Below are positions 3,204 to 11,690 of a DNA stretch of 11,690 bases, in pieces. The translations under genes were made by a program, and so were the position numbers. The notes under the pieces were generated by a model, which ran no database searches, had not been told where the DNA came from, and saw only the letters and a list, made by a program, of their open reading frames with translations. How positions within the stretch are numbered: the first letter of the stretch is position 1; every line of letters begins with the position of its first letter. The stretch lies in contig JALHTN010000070.1 of NCBI GenBank assembly GCA_022865865.1, forward strand, positions 1 to 11,690, given 5' to 3'. Source of the DNA: Anaerolineales bacterium (GTDB lineage Bacteria; Chloroflexota; Anaerolineae; Anaerolineales; UBA4823).

Positions 3204-3788
3204 CTACAGGATATGGCTTACATGTGACGAGGCTGTCGCCCGGCTTATGGATAAGCGCTCTGCGATCTCAGGGTTGGTTAAGCCTTCTACCATCAGCGCT
3301 AATACTTCCAATTCTCGAGGTGAGAGATCCTGCCCAACTTGGGGTTTACGCCCGGAGGTGATTAAGCCTTGCGTGACTTCCGGGGACAGGGTTCCGCGAC
3401 CGGCGTTTGCAGACCGGATCGCAGCAGCTAAATTGTCACCTTTTACATTCTTCAGCAGGTAGCTGATCGCTCCAGCTCGAATCGCTTCCTGCACCATGCT
3501 CTTTTCCTGGAAGCTGGTCAGTGCAATGACCTGGGTGGCAGGATTTTGTTCACGAATCAGGCGCGTCGCTTCAATCCCGCCCATGCCCGGCATAATGAGG
3601 TCCATCAAGACAACATCAGGCTGCAGCTGCAGACAAAGTTCAACGGCTTGCATGCCATCGCCGGCTTCTCCGATCAGCGACAGGTCGGGTTGGACTTTGA
3701 GATAGGCTGCTAAGCCGCGGCGCACCATATCATGGTCGTCGACAACTACAATTCGAATTTGCACCTGGTCAGACATACTGTCATCCAT
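3204..3788 (-). CDS. NarL/FixJ-family response regulator, interrupted near its C-terminus
   Basis: A two-component output protein: a receiver domain phosphorylated by a histidine kinase, then a LuxR-type DNA-binding domain. The receiver (about residues 10-128) has the acidic pair Asp17-Asp18, phospho-acceptor Asp63 in VVLMDLIMPGMGG, Thr91 and Lys113. The helix-turn-helix begins near residue 155 (LSPRELEVLALMVEGLTNPEIAERL) and reads through the recognition helix to SSHVSHIL. There an in-frame TAG (3204-3206) ends the protein at 194 residues, short of the roughly 215 usual for the family; the missing conserved tail is still encoded beyond the stop. An SD-like GAGGGAG ends one base before the ATG at 3788 and 13 bases before a second in-frame ATG at 3776, so the exact start is unclear. 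No partner kinase is adjacent. Without its last helix the DNA-binding domain is probably impaired. Confidence 0.85.
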   Translation of the reverse strand: MDDSMSDQVQIRIVVVDDHDMVRRGLAAYLKVQPDLSLIGEAGDGMQAVELCLQLQPDVVLMDLIMPGMGGIEATRLIREQNPATQVIALTSFQEKSMVQEAIRAGAISYLLKNVKGDNLAAAIRSANAGRGTLSPEVTQGLITSGRKPQVGQDLSPRELEVLALMVEGLTNPEIAERLSISRATASSHVSHIL

Positions 3789-5835: not shown

Positions 5836-6137
5836 TCAGTACCTGTGAGACATCCATAATTCAATTGAAAAACCGATCAAAATTTGGGCTATCGCATTAC
5901 CCAATACTCGATCATCAAGACTGGCTTGCGGCCAATGCGATCCGAGACCCCACACCAGATCGGCGGGAAGATAAACCGCATGATGGCAGAGGTCGCCATG
6001 AGCAGTCCCATCACACTGTCCCCGGCACCAAATTCAATGATGTAGAAGGGCAGGATGGGGATGATCATTCCAAATCCCATCATGATCACGACCATGGTAA
6101 AGAAGAGAATTGCTAGATTACGACGGTTATATTGCAT
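5836..6137 (-). pseudogene. Remnant of a major facilitator superfamily (TetA-like) transporter
   Basis: From an ATG at 6137 the frame gives an MFS N-terminus: a basic start (MQYNRRNLAIL), a first helix ending in MGFGMIIPILPFY, a second helix, and the motif-A loop GVSDRIGRKPVLMI between helices 2 and 3. Right after this the frame ends early at TAG (5889-5891). Shifting by one base at about 5908-5909 restores VLGNAIAQILIGF and SIELWM, exactly what should follow in this family, so a single base has been lost there. Similarity then ends near 5851 and the shifted frame stops at 5836-5838. Only about 95 of some 400 residues remain, so roughly three quarters of the gene is gone. No Shine-Dalgarno is visible before the ATG. 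Dead gene; it may have been a drug or metabolite exporter. Confidence 0.85.
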
Positions 6138-6296: not shown

Positions 6297-6324
6297 TTGA
6301 CTAGGGTGGATAAAAGTTTATAAT
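6297..6324 (+). promoter_or_regulatory. Sigma-A-type promoter of the methyltransferase gene
   Basis: TTGACT (6297-6302), a 16-base spacer, then TATAAT (6319-6324): five of six plus six of six matches to consensus. Transcription would start at about 6331, 36 bases before the ATG at 6367. The leader is therefore just long enough for an initiation site at 6367, which supports placing the methyltransferase start there, upstream of the in-frame TGA. Confidence 0.7.
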
Positions 6325-6366
6325 TTAGACTAGATTTATCCTCTATGTTCGATGTGAGAAAATTGA

Positions 6367-7008
6367 ATGACTTGAAACCAGTGTCAGGGAATTGAACAGG
6401 AGTTCAATGAGAAGTACGTCAGAAAAGAGTTGGCGCGCTACAGGAAGGAAGGGGTAGCGGGGACTACACGCCAATTGATTTCAGCTATCTCCAATGCTGA
6501 TGTAGAAGGCATGACACTGCTTGATATTGGTGGAGGCCTGGGTGGGATTCAGCACGCTTTACTTGATCGCGGCGTGGTCCAGGCGACGCATGTGGATGCT
6601 TCATCTGCCTATGTACGTGCAGCCCAAGAAGAAGCACATCAGCGGAATCTGGATGACAGTATCATTTTTCTAGAAGGTGATTTTGTTGATATTGCAAAAG
6701 AAATTCCTGAGGTAGATATTGTCACACTGGATCGGGTGGTTTGTTGTTATGACGATATGCAGGCGTTAATTAATTTATCCGCGAAGAAGGCACGTAAAAC
6801 ATACGGCCTGGTTTTTCCCCGCGATTTGTGGCTGTTTCGTTTGTTTCTGCCCCTTGCGAATTTCTTCCTCAGATTGAGAGGAACACCTTTCCGCATTTTC
6901 CTTCACAGCACAGATCAAATTGACCGCATCATAAAAGATCAGGGGTTATATCCCTATATCCACCAAAAGGCTGGATTTTGGCAAATACTAGTTTACAACA
7001 GGACTTGA
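6367..7008 (+). CDS. Class I SAM-dependent methyltransferase with in-frame TGA at codon 3
   Basis: Rossmann-fold methyltransferase; substrate unknown. The family-like sequence does not begin at the first open start (TTG 6430) but well before it: GIEQEFNEKYVRKEL leads without a break into ARYRKEGVAGTTRQL. Tracing back, the only ATG is 6367, giving M-T-(TGA)-N-Q-C-Q-G-I-E and a 213-residue protein. In homologues I recall, a Cys-rich start (CxxC then GIE) occupies this place, so the TGA stands where a cysteine is expected. SAM-binding motif I is LDIGGGLGG (about 52-60); the acidic end of strand 2 is Asp77 (HVDAS); GDF (104-106) and TLDRVVCCYDD (120-130) follow. A strong promoter 36 bases upstream fits the 6367 start, with a weak GTGAG as ribosome site. 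Either selenocysteine is inserted, or the gene is broken at its start, or translation begins at TTG 6430 and yields a shorter 192-residue protein that keeps the full SAM fold. Confidence 0.75.
6391..6408 (+). promoter_or_regulatory. Small hairpin after the TGA, SECIS-like candidate
   Basis: ATTGAAC (6391-6397) pairs perfectly with GTTCAAT (6402-6408) around the loop AGGA. The loop begins 22 bases after the TGA at 6373-6375, and a G is the second loop base. Bacterial SECIS elements, as described for the family, have a short stem close behind the UGA and a G in the first two loop positions. The stem has only two G-C pairs, so it is weak, and chance is possible. The loop region also holds an AGGAG that could act as a ribosome site for an out-of-frame ATG at 6407. 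Confidence 0.35.
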
Positions 7009-7079: not shown

Positions 7080-10000
7080 ATGGAAAAGAAGAAAAAAAAT
7101 AACTCGCAAACCAAGAATAAAAAAATAATAAACGCTGCGGAGCTTTTCGATAAAGGTTCTCAAGCGCAAGCGATTTATGATTATCCTGCCGCGATAGAGC
7201 TTTATACTACTGCGCTAGCTGTTGAGGGTATCACCTCTGAAATGGCATATGAGATTCTCGACCAACGTGCTGAATGCTACGAACGGATGGGGCAATTCAC
7301 TGATGAACTGGATGATCTGGATCAAATGGTTGAGATCGCCCAGGATCTCGAGAAACCTGAACTGCAGGTAGGGATAGTTTTCCGCCAGGTTTTTACTACT
7401 GCACGCAAGGGTGAAAATTCCAAGGTCAGTGAGATTGCAGAGGCAGTAAAAAAGCTTGAGAAAGGTTCGGATGACTATTCAATCTCCGCTGCCGTTAACC
7501 TGGCAGTTGGATACAAGCATTGGGTTCAAGAAGAGAAAGAGGAAGCTCAAGATAATTTTGATAAAGCCTTGCGCATGTACCGGGCAGTGGGAGATAGGCA
7601 GGGGGAAGCAAATACCCTTAGCGCACTGAGTTCAGTCCTATTGGATAGCGGCAACCAGACCCTAGCAGGGAAGTATTCTCTGGATGCTCTAGCAATTTGG
7701 CGATCCCTGGGGAATAGAAAGAGGGAGGCTAGCGCACTTAATGCCTGGTCTTTAACCGCCAGCGATTACGCTCAAAAACGCGATGCCGGAGAAGAAGCCT
7801 TAGAGATCTTCAAGACGATTGGATATCGCTGGGGGCAGGGCCAGATGTACAATAATTTAAGCTTGCTTTATGGGCATCTGGGTCTATACAGCACAGCCCG
7901 TGATTATGCCATGCGGGCTGTTGAAATGGTGCGTGGAATGGGTGCCCTTAGGGGTTTGGCGCTCTACCTGGATAGCTATGCGCGGGCAGAAATGAATTTG
8001 GGTGAGTTCTCCGCTGCAGAGAAAATATTTAAAGAGGGCCAGCAAGTTGCAAAGGAGATCAAAAGCACCATCATTGAGGGCTTCGACTTATATGGTTTAG
8101 GTAGGGTAGCTCTGATGTCCGGTGAAGCTGAAAAAGGCCGCGAAGCGATCCAATCGGCACTGGATACATTTCGAGAAACGAATCTCAGCTCTGATATTCC
8201 CTCAACTACAGCGTGGTTGGGGGCTGCATATCTGGCACTGGACGATCCTCAGACAGCCAGAATGCATACCGCGGAAAGCGTAACCGAGCTGGAAACACTC
8301 GGAATTGGGGGCTCAGAATATCCGCCGCAGGAGATCTGGTGGTGGCATTATCAAGCCTTGACTTACGAAGCGCGACAGCAGTTCGAAGCTGACAGTAAAG
8401 CTGGTGGAATTGTTGAAATTCCAGAGAACGCCTGGGCGGCATTAAAAAAAGCGCGCGAGATAACGCTCGAAGGGATTGTCTCACTGAGTGACGAGGGTTT
8501 ACGACGCAATTATATAAATAAAGTGAGCATTAACCGTACGATCATCGCAGAATGGGCACACCATGCAGCTGCCCGCGGTCTAAATATCGAAGCGAATGAC
8601 TCCCAACCTGGAAATGTTCAGGCACAGCTCCAGCGCCAGCTGGCAATCGGCGTGCGCATGAATGAAAGGCGTGAGATCCAGGCGCTGACTGAATTCATAA
8701 TGGATGAATTAATTGAGCTTAGCGGTTCTGAGCGTGCCATGCTGCTTTTGGTTAATGAGTCAGGGGAGAGATACATTGGGGCCAGCTACGGATTTACTGA
8801 AGAGGAGCAGGACAGATTCCTGCTCCAATCTGCCAAATTGATTGACAGTGTGGAAGTATCCGGCATGCATGACCTCCGCCAGGATATCGATGAGACGGAC
8901 ATCAATGGAACGACGCAGGACCCACAAAAATCGCTGTCTGTGCTGTGCGTGCCCTTGATATCCGGTGGAAAGTCGAGCGGCGTGATCTATGCCGATAATC
9001 ATGCCATCTATGGGAAATTCACCCAGGCAGATGTCGATCTGCTGGCATCCTTTGCCAACCAGGTTTCCGCTGCACTTGAAAACGCACATCTTTATCAAGG
9101 TTTAGAGCAGCGGGTGACTGAGCGTACTGCGGAATTGAGCACCTCGAATGAAGCCTTAGGGCAGCGCAATGCCGAATTGGGAATTATCAACAGCGTCCAA
9201 GATGGATTGGCGACGAAATTAGACTTCCAGGATATCATCGATCTGGTGGGTACGAAAATTCAAGAGATTTTCGGCATCCAGAACATGAGCATATCCATTC
9301 TTGATAGGAGCAGAAAACAGGTCGAAATCCCATTTTATTTGGAAAACGGTAAACGGTTCCCGATCGATCCTTGGCCATTTAAGGAAAATACTGGTGTGAT
9401 TAGTCATGTTCTGTTATCAAAAGAACCAGTGCTGGTTCACGAGAATTTCAGACAATTTGCGGTAGATTTGGGTTCTACGGTGACTTTGGGAGATGAAGAT
9501 GCTCCTATGGCGGAATCCGTAGTCATGGTCCCGATTTTGGTGGGAGGGGAATCTATCGGCACGATTGGTTTGTTCGATCATCAAAAAAACAAGTTCGAAG
9601 AACCTGACCTGCGATTACTAACTACGCTTGCCAGCAGCATGGGTGTTGCATTGGACAATGCCCGTCTCTTTGACCAGACCAATCGTTTGTTAGATGAAAC
9701 ACAACGGCGCAGCGCTGAACTGGCGATCATCAACAGTGTCCAGGAAGCCTTAGCCTCCAAATTAGAGTTTCAAAGCGTGATCGATTTTGTGGGGGACAAG
9801 CTCCGGGATGTCTTGGGTACTGAGAATATTGATATTCGGTTAATTGATAAGAATACAGAAATGGTGCAGTATCTCTATATGTATGAACATGGAGAGCGAT
9901 TCGAGTTTCCACCAGCCCCAATTGCCGGAATTTCTAAATACATGGTTGAGACCCAAGAACCATTGGTGATTATTGAAAACTTACCGGAAAAAATCGCTGA

Positions 10001-11690
10001 AATCGGATCCTATACTTTACCGGGCACAAAAACAGCAAAATCATTGATCGCCGTTCCTTTCACTATCCGGGAAGATTCAATCGGAGTCATTATTGTTGAG
10101 GATTATGAGAAAGAGCATGCTTTTAGCGATTCGGACTTGAATTTGCTCACCACCTTGGCGGCTAGTATGAGCGTAGCGCTGGAGAATGCCCGTTTATTTG
10201 ACGAGACCAATCGTTTGCTGGATGAGACCCAGCAGCGCAGCGCTGAGCTGGCGATTATCAACAGCGTCCAGGAGGGTTTGGCAGAAGAACTGGATATTCC
10301 CAGTATTTTTGAACTGGTGGGAGAGAAAATCCGCGAGATATTTGACGCCCAGGTGGTGCTCATATCAACGTTTGACTATGAAAAGAAAATTCGCACCCAT
10401 CCCTATCATATTGAAAAGGGAGTGCGGACCGACCTTGATCCTTCGCCATTCAATCAACTAACTTACCAACTTGTTGAGAGCCGTAAACAGGTGGTTATTA
10501 ATCAGGATATGGCAACCCGTGCAGAAGAGTTGGGAATGGCTATAAACCCGGGAACCGAAGCTCCTAAGTCACTAATTTTTGTGCCGATGATTGTAGGGGA
10601 TACTGTGATGGGATCGGTAAGCCTGCAGAACGTAGATCGGGAAAATGCCTTTCCAGAATCCGCAGTCAGGCTGTTGAACACTATGACCAGCAGCATGAGC
10701 GTTGCGCTTGAGAACGCGCGATTATTCGACGAGACCAACCGCCTGCTGGATGAAACCCAGCAGCGCAATGCCGAGCTCACTATCCTGAACAGTGTCGGTG
10801 ATGCGATGGCTCAGAAGCAGGATGTGGATACAATCACGCGCATAGTGGGGGATAAGGTACGGGATATCTTCAAGGCAGAATCAACGTCAATTCACTTGTA
10901 TAACTCCCAGGATCAAATTATCACCACACCGTATGGATACGATCGTGGATATGTAGAGACACCATCATTTCGATTTGGCGAAGGTCTGACTTCGGTTGTG
11001 ATCGAAACGCGGCAGCCATTGTTATTTGGTACGGATGAGGATGCGAAACAAAGCGGATCTATAAGTTTAGTACATGGTGAAGATGAAACCATCACTGAGT
11101 CCTATATTGGGGTACCGATTATTGTCGGAGATCGGGTCCTGGGGGTGGTGAGTGTCCAAAGCTATCGCAAACACGCCTATGACGAGTCAAGTGTGCGTTT
11201 ATTGAGCACCCTGGCGACGAGTATGGGTGTAGCGATTGAAAACGCGCGTCTTTTCGAGGAGACCAACCGCTTGCTGTTCGAAAGCCAGCAGCAAGCAGCA
11301 GAAATGGCCACGGTCAACACTGTCGGTAAAGCACTGACCTCCGAATTGGAGATGGATGCTCTGATTGAATTGATCGGAGAGCAGGTTCGGCAGAATTTTT
11401 CCGCCGATATCACCTATGTTGCCTTGTATGACCGGCAAACAAACCTGATTGAATTCCCATATGCTGTAGGAGAAGACCTCGAGTCGATGCAATTTGGAGA
11501 GGGGCTAACCAGCAAAATCATCGAGTCTGCAGAACCCTTGTTAATCAACGAGGATGTTAACCAGCATGTAGATGAAATCGGTGCTACTCACACCGGGGTA
11601 GATGTGCAATCATACCTGGGTGTCCCGATCTTGGTTGGAAAACAGGCGATCGGCGTAATCAGCGTGCAGAGCATGGATGATGTTAAGCAC
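7080..11690 (+). CDS. TPR plus tandem-GAF signalling protein, 3'-truncated by window edge
   Basis: Open from ATG 7080 to the last base: 1537 residues without a stop, C-terminus outside. AAGGAAG at 7066-7072 is a good ribosome site seven bases before the ATG. After a lysine-rich start, residues about 19-440 are helical tetratricopeptide repeats (for example AALNAWS- and YNNLSLLYGHLGLYSTARDYA-type units), a protein-interaction scaffold. A linker (LSDEGLRRNYINKVSINR, about 469-486) leads to a divergent GAF domain at about 520-668. A long signalling helix (VTERTAEL) follows, then five GAF units starting at residues 701, 882, 1058, 1234 and 1410, the last incomplete. Each ends in a joining helix of the type ARLFDETNRLLDETQ. 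GAF domains sense small ligands or mediate dimerisation; the ligands here are unknown. I see no signal peptide or membrane segment, so it is probably cytoplasmic. Similar proteins usually end in a histidine kinase or nucleotide cyclase, but nothing here shows which. Probably its own transcription unit. Confidence 0.9.
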   Translation, partial: MEKKKKNNSQTKNKKIINAAELFDKGSQAQAIYDYPAAIELYTTALAVEGITSEMAYEILDQRAECYERMGQFTDELDDLDQMVEIAQDLEKPELQVGIVFRQVFTTARKGENSKVSEIAEAVKKLEKGSDDYSISAAVNLAVGYKHWVQEEKEEAQDNFDKALRMYRAVGDRQGEANTLSALSSVLLDSGNQTLAGKYSLDALAIWRSLGNRKREASALNAWSLTASDYAQKRDAGEEALEIFKTIGYRWGQGQMYNNLSLLYGHLGLYSTARDYAMRAVEMVRGMGALRGLALYLDSYARAEMNLGEFSAAEKIFKEGQQVAKEIKSTIIEGFDLYGLGRVALMSGEAEKGREAIQSALDTFRETNLSSDIPSTTAWLGAAYLALDDPQTARMHTAESVTELETLGIGGSEYPPQEIWWWHYQALTYEARQQFEADSKAGGIVEIPENAWAALKKAREITLEGIVSLSDEGLRRNYINKVSINRTIIAEWAHHAAARGLNIEANDSQPGNVQAQLQRQLAIGVRMNERREIQALTEFIMDELIELSGSERAMLLLVNESGERYIGASYGFTEEEQDRFLLQSAKLIDSVEVSGMHDLRQDIDETDINGTTQDPQKSLSVLCVPLISGGKSSGVIYADNHAIYGKFTQADVDLLASFANQVSAALENAHLYQGLEQRVTERTAELSTSNEALGQRNAELGIINSVQDGLATKLDFQDIIDLVGTKIQEIFGIQNMSISILDRSRKQVEIPFYLENGKRFPIDPWPFKENTGVISHVLLSKEPVLVHENFRQFAVDLGSTVTLGDEDAPMAESVVMVPILVGGESIGTIGLFDHQKNKFEEPDLRLLTTLASSMGVALDNARLFDQTNRLLDETQRRSAELAIINSVQEALASKLEFQSVIDFVGDKLRDVLGTENIDIRLIDKNTEMVQYLYMYEHGERFEFPPAPIAGISKYMVETQEPLVIIENLPEKIAEIGSYTLPGTKTAKSLIAVPFTIREDSIGVIIVEDYEKEHAFSDSDLNLLTTLAASMSVALENARLFDETNRLLDETQQRSAELAIINSVQEGLAEELDIPSIFELVGEKIREIFDAQVVLISTFDYEKKIRTHPYHIEKGVRTDLDPSPFNQLTYQLVESRKQVVINQDMATRAEELGMAINPGTEAPKSLIFVPMIVGDTVMGSVSLQNVDRENAFPESAVRLLNTMTSSMSVALENARLFDETNRLLDETQQRNAELTILNSVGDAMAQKQDVDTITRIVGDKVRDIFKAESTSIHLYNSQDQIITTPYGYDRGYVETPSFRFGEGLTSVVIETRQPLLFGTDEDAKQSGSISLVHGEDETITESYIGVPIIVGDRVLGVVSVQSYRKHAYDESSVRLLSTLATSMGVAIENARLFEETNRLLFESQQQAAEMATVNTVGKALTSELEMDALIELIGEQVRQNFSADITYVALYDRQTNLIEFPYAVGEDLESMQFGEGLTSKIIESAEPLLINEDVNQHVDEIGATHTGVDVQSYLGVPILVGKQAIGVISVQSMDDVKH
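9180..11690 (+). repeat. In-gene tandem array of GAF-plus-helix units, 528-bp period
   Basis: Units begin at 9180, 9723, 10251, 10779 and 11307: the first is 543 bp, the next three exactly 528 bp, the last cut by the window. The joining helix is the best conserved part. The copies beginning at 9657 and 10185 agree in 78 of 93 bases by eye, while the GAF cores differ much more. The strict period and the conserved linker suggest tandem duplication followed by divergence or selection on helix register. Such an array can also recombine or collapse during assembly. Confidence 0.9.

Follow-up and report, generated by a model that had tools for sequence, protein, structure and literature searches.

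The window, by which we mean the whole 11,690-nucleotide stretch analysed here (contig JALHTN010000070.1 of the Anaerolineales bacterium assembly GCA_022865865.1, Chloroflexota), carries on its forward strand a gene for an S-adenosylmethionine (SAM)-dependent methyltransferase whose third codon is an in-frame TGA that we predict to encode selenocysteine (Sec, U). The gene comprises the following features:

6367..7008, forward strand: predicted selenoprotein gene for a 213-residue SAM-dependent methyltransferase that starts M-T-U-N-Q-C; stop TGA at 7006-7008
6373..6375, forward strand: in-frame TGA at codon 3, predicted Sec, first position of a U-x-x-C motif
6430..6432, forward strand: first in-frame TTG behind the TGA, usable as a start by a standard gene caller (from the list of open reading frames, ORFs)

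Positions 6367-6384 read ATG-ACT-TGA-AAC-CAG-TGT, the TGT at 6382-6384 being the second Cys codon of the U-x-x-C (residues 3-6). A preliminary description of the locus had read these codons as M-T-stop-N-Q-C in the methyltransferase frame, and this frame is indeed open from the TGA at 6373-6375 to the stop at 7006-7008, with one in-frame TGA before the stop. The same description had named the TTG at 6430 as a start by which the TGA could be bypassed. This codon is available for such a role, as the ORF list places no ATG, GTG or TTG in frame between the TGA and the TTG, and an in-frame TTG occupies the equivalent codon in the three nearest relatives (L001-L003, below).

Codon 3 and the N-terminus in relatives

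Of 157 stretches confirmed in a scan of GTDB contigs, the best 80 served as homologous loci. The three nearest to the window among these 80, L001 (CP070785.1), L002 (CALBUI010000335.1) and L003 (CP070764.1), encode proteins that are 69, 66 and 65% identical to the window protein and carry ATG ACT TGA at the matching codon, these three codons being identical in all four genes including that of the window. As three other assemblies show this TGA as well, a read error is unlikely, and we rejected chance or read error as its source. Aligning codon 3 with homologues, as the preliminary description had proposed, gave 3 TGA, 65 Cys (TGC or TGT) and 12 other codons among the 80 loci, in keeping with its statement that related proteins have Cys at this position. 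The 77 loci without TGA are 41-51% identical to the window protein and mostly have an N-terminal CxxC; several of the 12 with another codon have Cys one codon away, and TGG occurs at codon 3 in none of the 77. Of the 80 loci, 78 have the second Cys of the motif.

We also ran profile searches over four overlapping genome sets, three of them samples of a larger group. Matches were obtained in 49 of 396 genomes from the class of G001 (an inner TGA in 1), in 54 of 400 from the order of G003 (TGA in 3), in 7 of 38 from the family of G003 (TGA in 3) and, at an E-value of 1e-40, in 54 of 400 from the phylum of G002 (TGA in 1). The TGA-bearing genomes were always those of the relatives G001-G003, and a profile match starting past the N-terminus cannot reveal a TGA at codon 3. 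Among viral contigs, no relative was found.

The codons between the TGA and the TTG (codons 4-21) have nonsynonymous rates (dN) of 0.05-0.25 over the six pairs of the four TGA genes and synonymous rates (dS) of 0.57-1.8 in the five pairs where dS could be computed. Judged by these rates, codons 4-21 are under purifying selection, which argues that they are translated, since a protein starting at the TTG would not conserve them. This bears on the possibility that the start has decayed, i.e. that the Cys codon mutated to TGA and that the enzyme starts at TTG 6430, lacking its N-terminus and any Sec. The in-frame TTG at the equivalent codon of L001-L003, the downstream starts used by public gene calls and the presence of a relic among the neighbouring genes of the window would all fit such a decay, but the purifying selection among the four genes, the NQCQGIEREFN-like sequence that the window shares with distant Cys homologues and the retention of the same TGA in genes just 65-69% identical do not. 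We therefore regard a decayed start as very unlikely, and a bypass by way of the TTG leaves the protein-level conservation of the preceding codons unexplained. Similarly, the conserved ATG-ACT-TGA could be a leader ORF, two codons long, through which translation of a protein with a later start is regulated. Minimal leader ORFs exist in other systems, and the three codons are identical in all four genes, but a leader would explain neither the protein-level conservation of codons 4-21 nor the presence of Cys at exactly the TGA codon in 65 of the 77 non-TGA loci, and we give it slightly less credence still.

Two upstream elements are relevant to where transcription and translation begin:

6297..6324, forward strand: sigma-70-like promoter TTGACT-N16-TATAAT, kept in the window and in L001-L003; putative role
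6354..6359, forward strand: GTGRGA element, possible ribosome-binding site, present in all four TGA genes

In the window, TTGACT (6297-6302) and TATAAT (6319-6324) are separated by a 16-bp spacer, and the TTGAC and GTTTATAATTTAGA columns are identical in the four aligned upstream regions. A promoter had been noted in the preliminary description, and the promoter-like sequence is indeed there; its distance from the start had been put at 36 bases, whereas TATAAT and ATG are 42 bases apart. Transcription starting some 7 bp behind TATAAT would nonetheless begin ahead of the ATG, so that the conserved promoter would place the 5' end of the transcript upstream of position 6367. Retention of both promoter and GTGRGA element in all four genes is consistent with initiation at the ATG.

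Public protein calls were searched with the window frame, Cys being typed at the TGA, as query, and 3085 proteins matched at E <= 0.001 among 3278 candidates; the analyses that follow rest on the best 120 of these 3085. Ninety-two of the 120 calls fall short of 205 residues, and all 92 lack a QCxG-type motif within their first 25 residues. Among the 28 calls with at least 205 residues, the third letter is C in 23 and S in P0093; in P0115 a Cys motif follows a longer start, and P0002, P0003 and P0005 open with MTW or MMTW, the outcome expected if the gene caller translated TGA as Trp. From the second residue of the shorter call onward, P0061 is identical to P0003 and P0047 to P0005; that one protein is called both with W and cut short is explained by TGA and not by TGG. 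The 124 rows of a tree divide into a side of 24 (99/99), all full-length, and a side of 100, the latter clade containing the four TGA genes (window and L001-L003), 92 calls without N-terminus, three calls with W and one with Cys. P0032 and P0038, the public calls of the L001 and L002 genes, are both cut short and begin one codon past the position of TTG 6430, and P0099 adjoins L003 on almost no branch. Thus, in the genes whose DNA was read, a cut-short call goes with TGA. A further search with the region alone for intact N-termini returned the query only and was uninformative.

The W in P0002, P0003 and P0005 could also be taken at face value, UGA being read as Trp or as another ordinary amino acid through suppression or a changed code. 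However, TGA is the stop of the methyltransferase gene itself and of the window frames 1-1044 and 1041-2327, which speaks against a general code change; codon 3 is Cys in 65 of the 77 non-TGA loci and TGG in none of them; and a tRNA-Sec is found in the genomes of the three relatives (see below). Of the alternatives considered here, decoding as an ordinary amino acid seems to us the least likely.

The hairpin behind the TGA and the selenium machinery

Shortly downstream of the TGA lies the following element:

6391..6408, forward strand: candidate upper hairpin of a bacterial selenocysteine insertion sequence (SECIS), stem ATTGAAC/GTTCAAT, loop AGGA, 22 nt from the TGA to the loop

ATTGAAC (6391-6397), AGGA (6398-6401) and GTTCAAT (6402-6408) form seven perfect pairs that start 15 nt behind the TGA, precisely as the preliminary description had it. 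The stem core ATTGAA/TTCAAT is identical in all four TGA genes, each of which also has a G within the first two loop bases and 21-22 nt between TGA and loop. The bacterial SECIS model, as laid out in the available part of a 2026 review (PMC13188914), has an apical loop of 3-9 nt, a stem of 4-16 bp, a G among the first two bases of that loop, a distance of 16-37 nt from the UGA and a minimum free energy of at most -7.5. Loop, stem, G and spacing fit this model in all four TGA genes, and the energy over 48 nt fits in two of them. In synonymous resampling of the window a comparable hairpin appeared in 12% of draws, and all four hairpins appeared jointly in 65 of 20,000 resamplings, a control that treats four related genes as independent.

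What stands out is conservation at the nucleotide level. Among the four TGA genes, 107 degenerate codons are invariant in their amino acid, and 16 of these are identical as codons. For the stem codons (I9, E10, F13 and N14) identity is complete (4/4), versus 12 of the 103 remaining codons (Fisher p 3.5e-4); adding codon 12 gives 4/5 versus 12/102 (p 1.6e-3), and codons 7-14, a span picked after looking, give 6/7 versus 10/100 (p 2.8e-5). This conservation suggests an RNA element in the stem codons, for which a SECIS is the candidate, albeit one whose exact fold is ambiguous in register.

The genomes of all three TGA-bearing relatives hold selA (536.7, 533.9 and 538.3 bits in G001, G002 and G003) and a tRNA-Sec (73.3, 73.3 and 72.0 bits, respectively), which ARAGORN also reports as tRNA-SeC(tca) in 3/3. 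A complete selB is present in G002 (335 bits), and in G003 it is found in two pieces, the first running into N. Genes for selD score over the cut-off in G002 and G003 (the latter gene being L102), each with one in-frame TGA, and in the selD of G002 (L101 1219-2472, reverse strand) this TGA lies within CAGU. SelD of the G002/G003 lineage thus itself looks like a selenoprotein, and the CAGU of G002 SelD would be a case of UGA used for Sec at the known Sec site of SelD. The window's own genome presumably has sel genes as well.

Proposed reading and family relationships

Taken together, the kept TGA, the Cys of relatives, the selection behind the TGA, the conservation of the hairpin codons and the sel genes of the relatives make it, on sequence evidence, highly probable that the gene encodes a selenoprotein of a new selenoprotein family, with Sec at residue 3 replacing the Cys of its relatives. 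The hairpin would then act as SECIS for Sec insertion, and U3 and C6 may work as a pair in redox chemistry or in binding a metal or metalloid.

Several observations weigh against this reading. The TGA was read directly in four genes only, and the 92 cut-short proteins are indirect evidence for it; the remaining cut-short rows probably hide a TGA too, although contig ends or other causes may account for the shortness of some. One member of the clade, P0004, has Cys. That 24 of 24 rows outside the clade are full-length is a biased control, because distant relatives that are short would rank too low to enter the best 120 of 3085, and this selection weakens the contrast of full-length calls outside with cut-short calls inside. 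The hairpin is AU-rich, as the preliminary description had cautioned, with 48-nt folds of -6.6, -9.2, -12.1 and -6.5 kcal/mol in the four TGA genes, two of which miss the published limit of -7.5. Consensus folding favours another register, with 1 covarying pair of 11, and a comparable hairpin exists in 15 of the 77 non-TGA homologues; on these grounds we rejected the hairpin as proof by itself, and alone it is weak evidence. The search for sel genes covered the genomes of relatives, and in G001 selB was found neither over the cut-off nor by a second, protein search, nor was selD found over the cut-off. The three G001 loci inspected contain runs of N, and such gaps could possibly account for both absences. 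Finally, selA scored over the cut-off in 71 of the 80 family-bearing genomes searched, so that its presence does not single out the TGA bearers; we discarded it as a discriminator and treat it as permissive only.

In the mechanism that we propose for the selenoprotein, transcription from the conserved promoter would begin before the ATG, and the ribosome would initiate at ATG 6367 and meet the UGA at codon 3. The hairpin in codons 9-14 would recruit SelB with Sec-tRNA(Sec), Sec would be inserted at the UGA, and the resulting N-terminal U-x-x-C would stand in for the C-x-x-C of the relatives. A much more speculative extension, which we think unlikely in full, is a new class of selenium-dependent methyltransferases in which U3 and C6, together with the invariant C126-C127, bind or activate a soft substrate (metalloid, thiol or selenol) and the divergent transporter exports the product, with Sec decoding at codon 3 and SelB-SECIS recruitment overlapping the initiation region.

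If the selenoprotein reading holds, a selenoprotein family would be added in uncultured Chloroflexota, and with it an instance in which UGA is decoded at codon 3, directly after initiation. The clade holds 96 of the 120 best-scoring protein entries (of 3085), some of them one gene called twice, and nearly all clade entries lack the N-terminus in public gene calls, catalogues tending to clip the front of such proteins. Selenium would also be tied to an uncharacterised methyltransferase family of several phyla. Positions at which Sec replaces Cys are usually catalytic, and residue 3 would accordingly point to a functional residue.

With regard to its family, the window protein scores over the gathering score of PF13649, and no NCBIfam model reaches its cut-off among 24 matches, which include neither a selenoprotein-named model nor one for arsenite methyltransferase. 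It is a SAM-dependent methyltransferase with a ChlM-like fold; its score with TIGR02021 (ChlM/BchM, magnesium-protoporphyrin IX methyltransferase) is far below the cut-off (38.3 versus 158.9 bits), and it is unlikely to share the ChlM/BchM substrate. The Cys-form relatives (MxCxQCQGIE methyltransferases of Chloroflexota, Neomarinimicrobiota, Gemmatimonadota and others) belong to the same family and lack the TGA. With bacterial selenoproteins at large (families with Cys/Sec pairs, such as thioredoxin and PrdB with UxxC), the window gene has in common a UGA that replaces a conserved Cys, the U-x-x-C, a hairpin a short way downstream and the sel genes of the relatives; it differs in that the product is a SAM methyltransferase with Sec predicted at residue 3.

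The methyltransferase selenoproteins given in the available part of PMC13188914 are arsenite methyltransferase (UxxG), MduS (CxxU, two Sec) and methyltransferase/UXPK-star (UxxG, two Sec), and its seven mentions of 'methyltransferase' all concern arsenite forms, methylated-DNA methyltransferase, MduS or methyltransferase/UXPK-star, with no N-terminal UxxC methyltransferase among them. MduS is assigned there to PF13649, a model that the window protein matches as well, but its description (two Sec, CxxU) sets it apart from a gene with one TGA and UxxC; likewise, the U-N-Q-C of the window differs from the UxxG of the arsenite methyltransferase selenoprotein. The available portions of PMC12013277, PMC5029168, PMC9312934, PMC2398784 and PMC1088965 hold no selenoprotein methyltransferase of this kind, and those of PMC5736913 treat Sec formate dehydrogenases of Chloroflexi. 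By title or start of abstract, a literature search on selenoprotein methyltransferases and Chloroflexota, with subscription literature and preprints excluded, likewise gave none of this kind.

Neighbourhood of the gene

One further feature lies outside the selenoprotein gene:

5889..6137, reverse strand: relic of a major facilitator superfamily (MFS) transporter gene, 82 codons, divergent from the methyltransferase gene

Over 76 residues the relic shows 80-86% identity with the L001-L003 transporters, whose divergent open frames have 402-469 codons (that of L001 running into N at its end) and are 76-90% identical to one another. Damage to nearby genes, mentioned in the preliminary description, is thus real for the divergent transporter, the methyltransferase frame itself being open. 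The L002 and L003 transporters score 189 and 204 bits with the Tet(A)/Tet(B)/Tet(C) model (cut-off 475), and all 25 matches shown for them stay below their cut-offs. Apart from a weak match in L016, the divergent transporter was not found in the other 77 loci; MFS-like frames of L056 and L066, which lie at other positions, were grouped with it by clustering. Clustering of the neighbourhoods of the 80 loci and the window gave no common partner that would explain the function of the methyltransferase.

Upstream of Cys-form methyltransferase genes, related frames form an 8-locus cluster; in L017, L021, L023, L048 and L068 the frames at this place resemble what we take to be C-terminal parts of ABC (ATP-binding cassette)-transporter ATPases. 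In the window, positions 3204-3788 (reverse strand) encode a response regulator, LuxR-type by eye, with an in-frame TAG before its usual end (also by eye), and related frames of 212-213 codons are found in L002 and L003 on the same side of the methyltransferase gene. On the other side, a very long open frame (7080-11690, forward strand) runs off the end of the window and, by eye, has a TPR-like start followed by GAF-like repeats.
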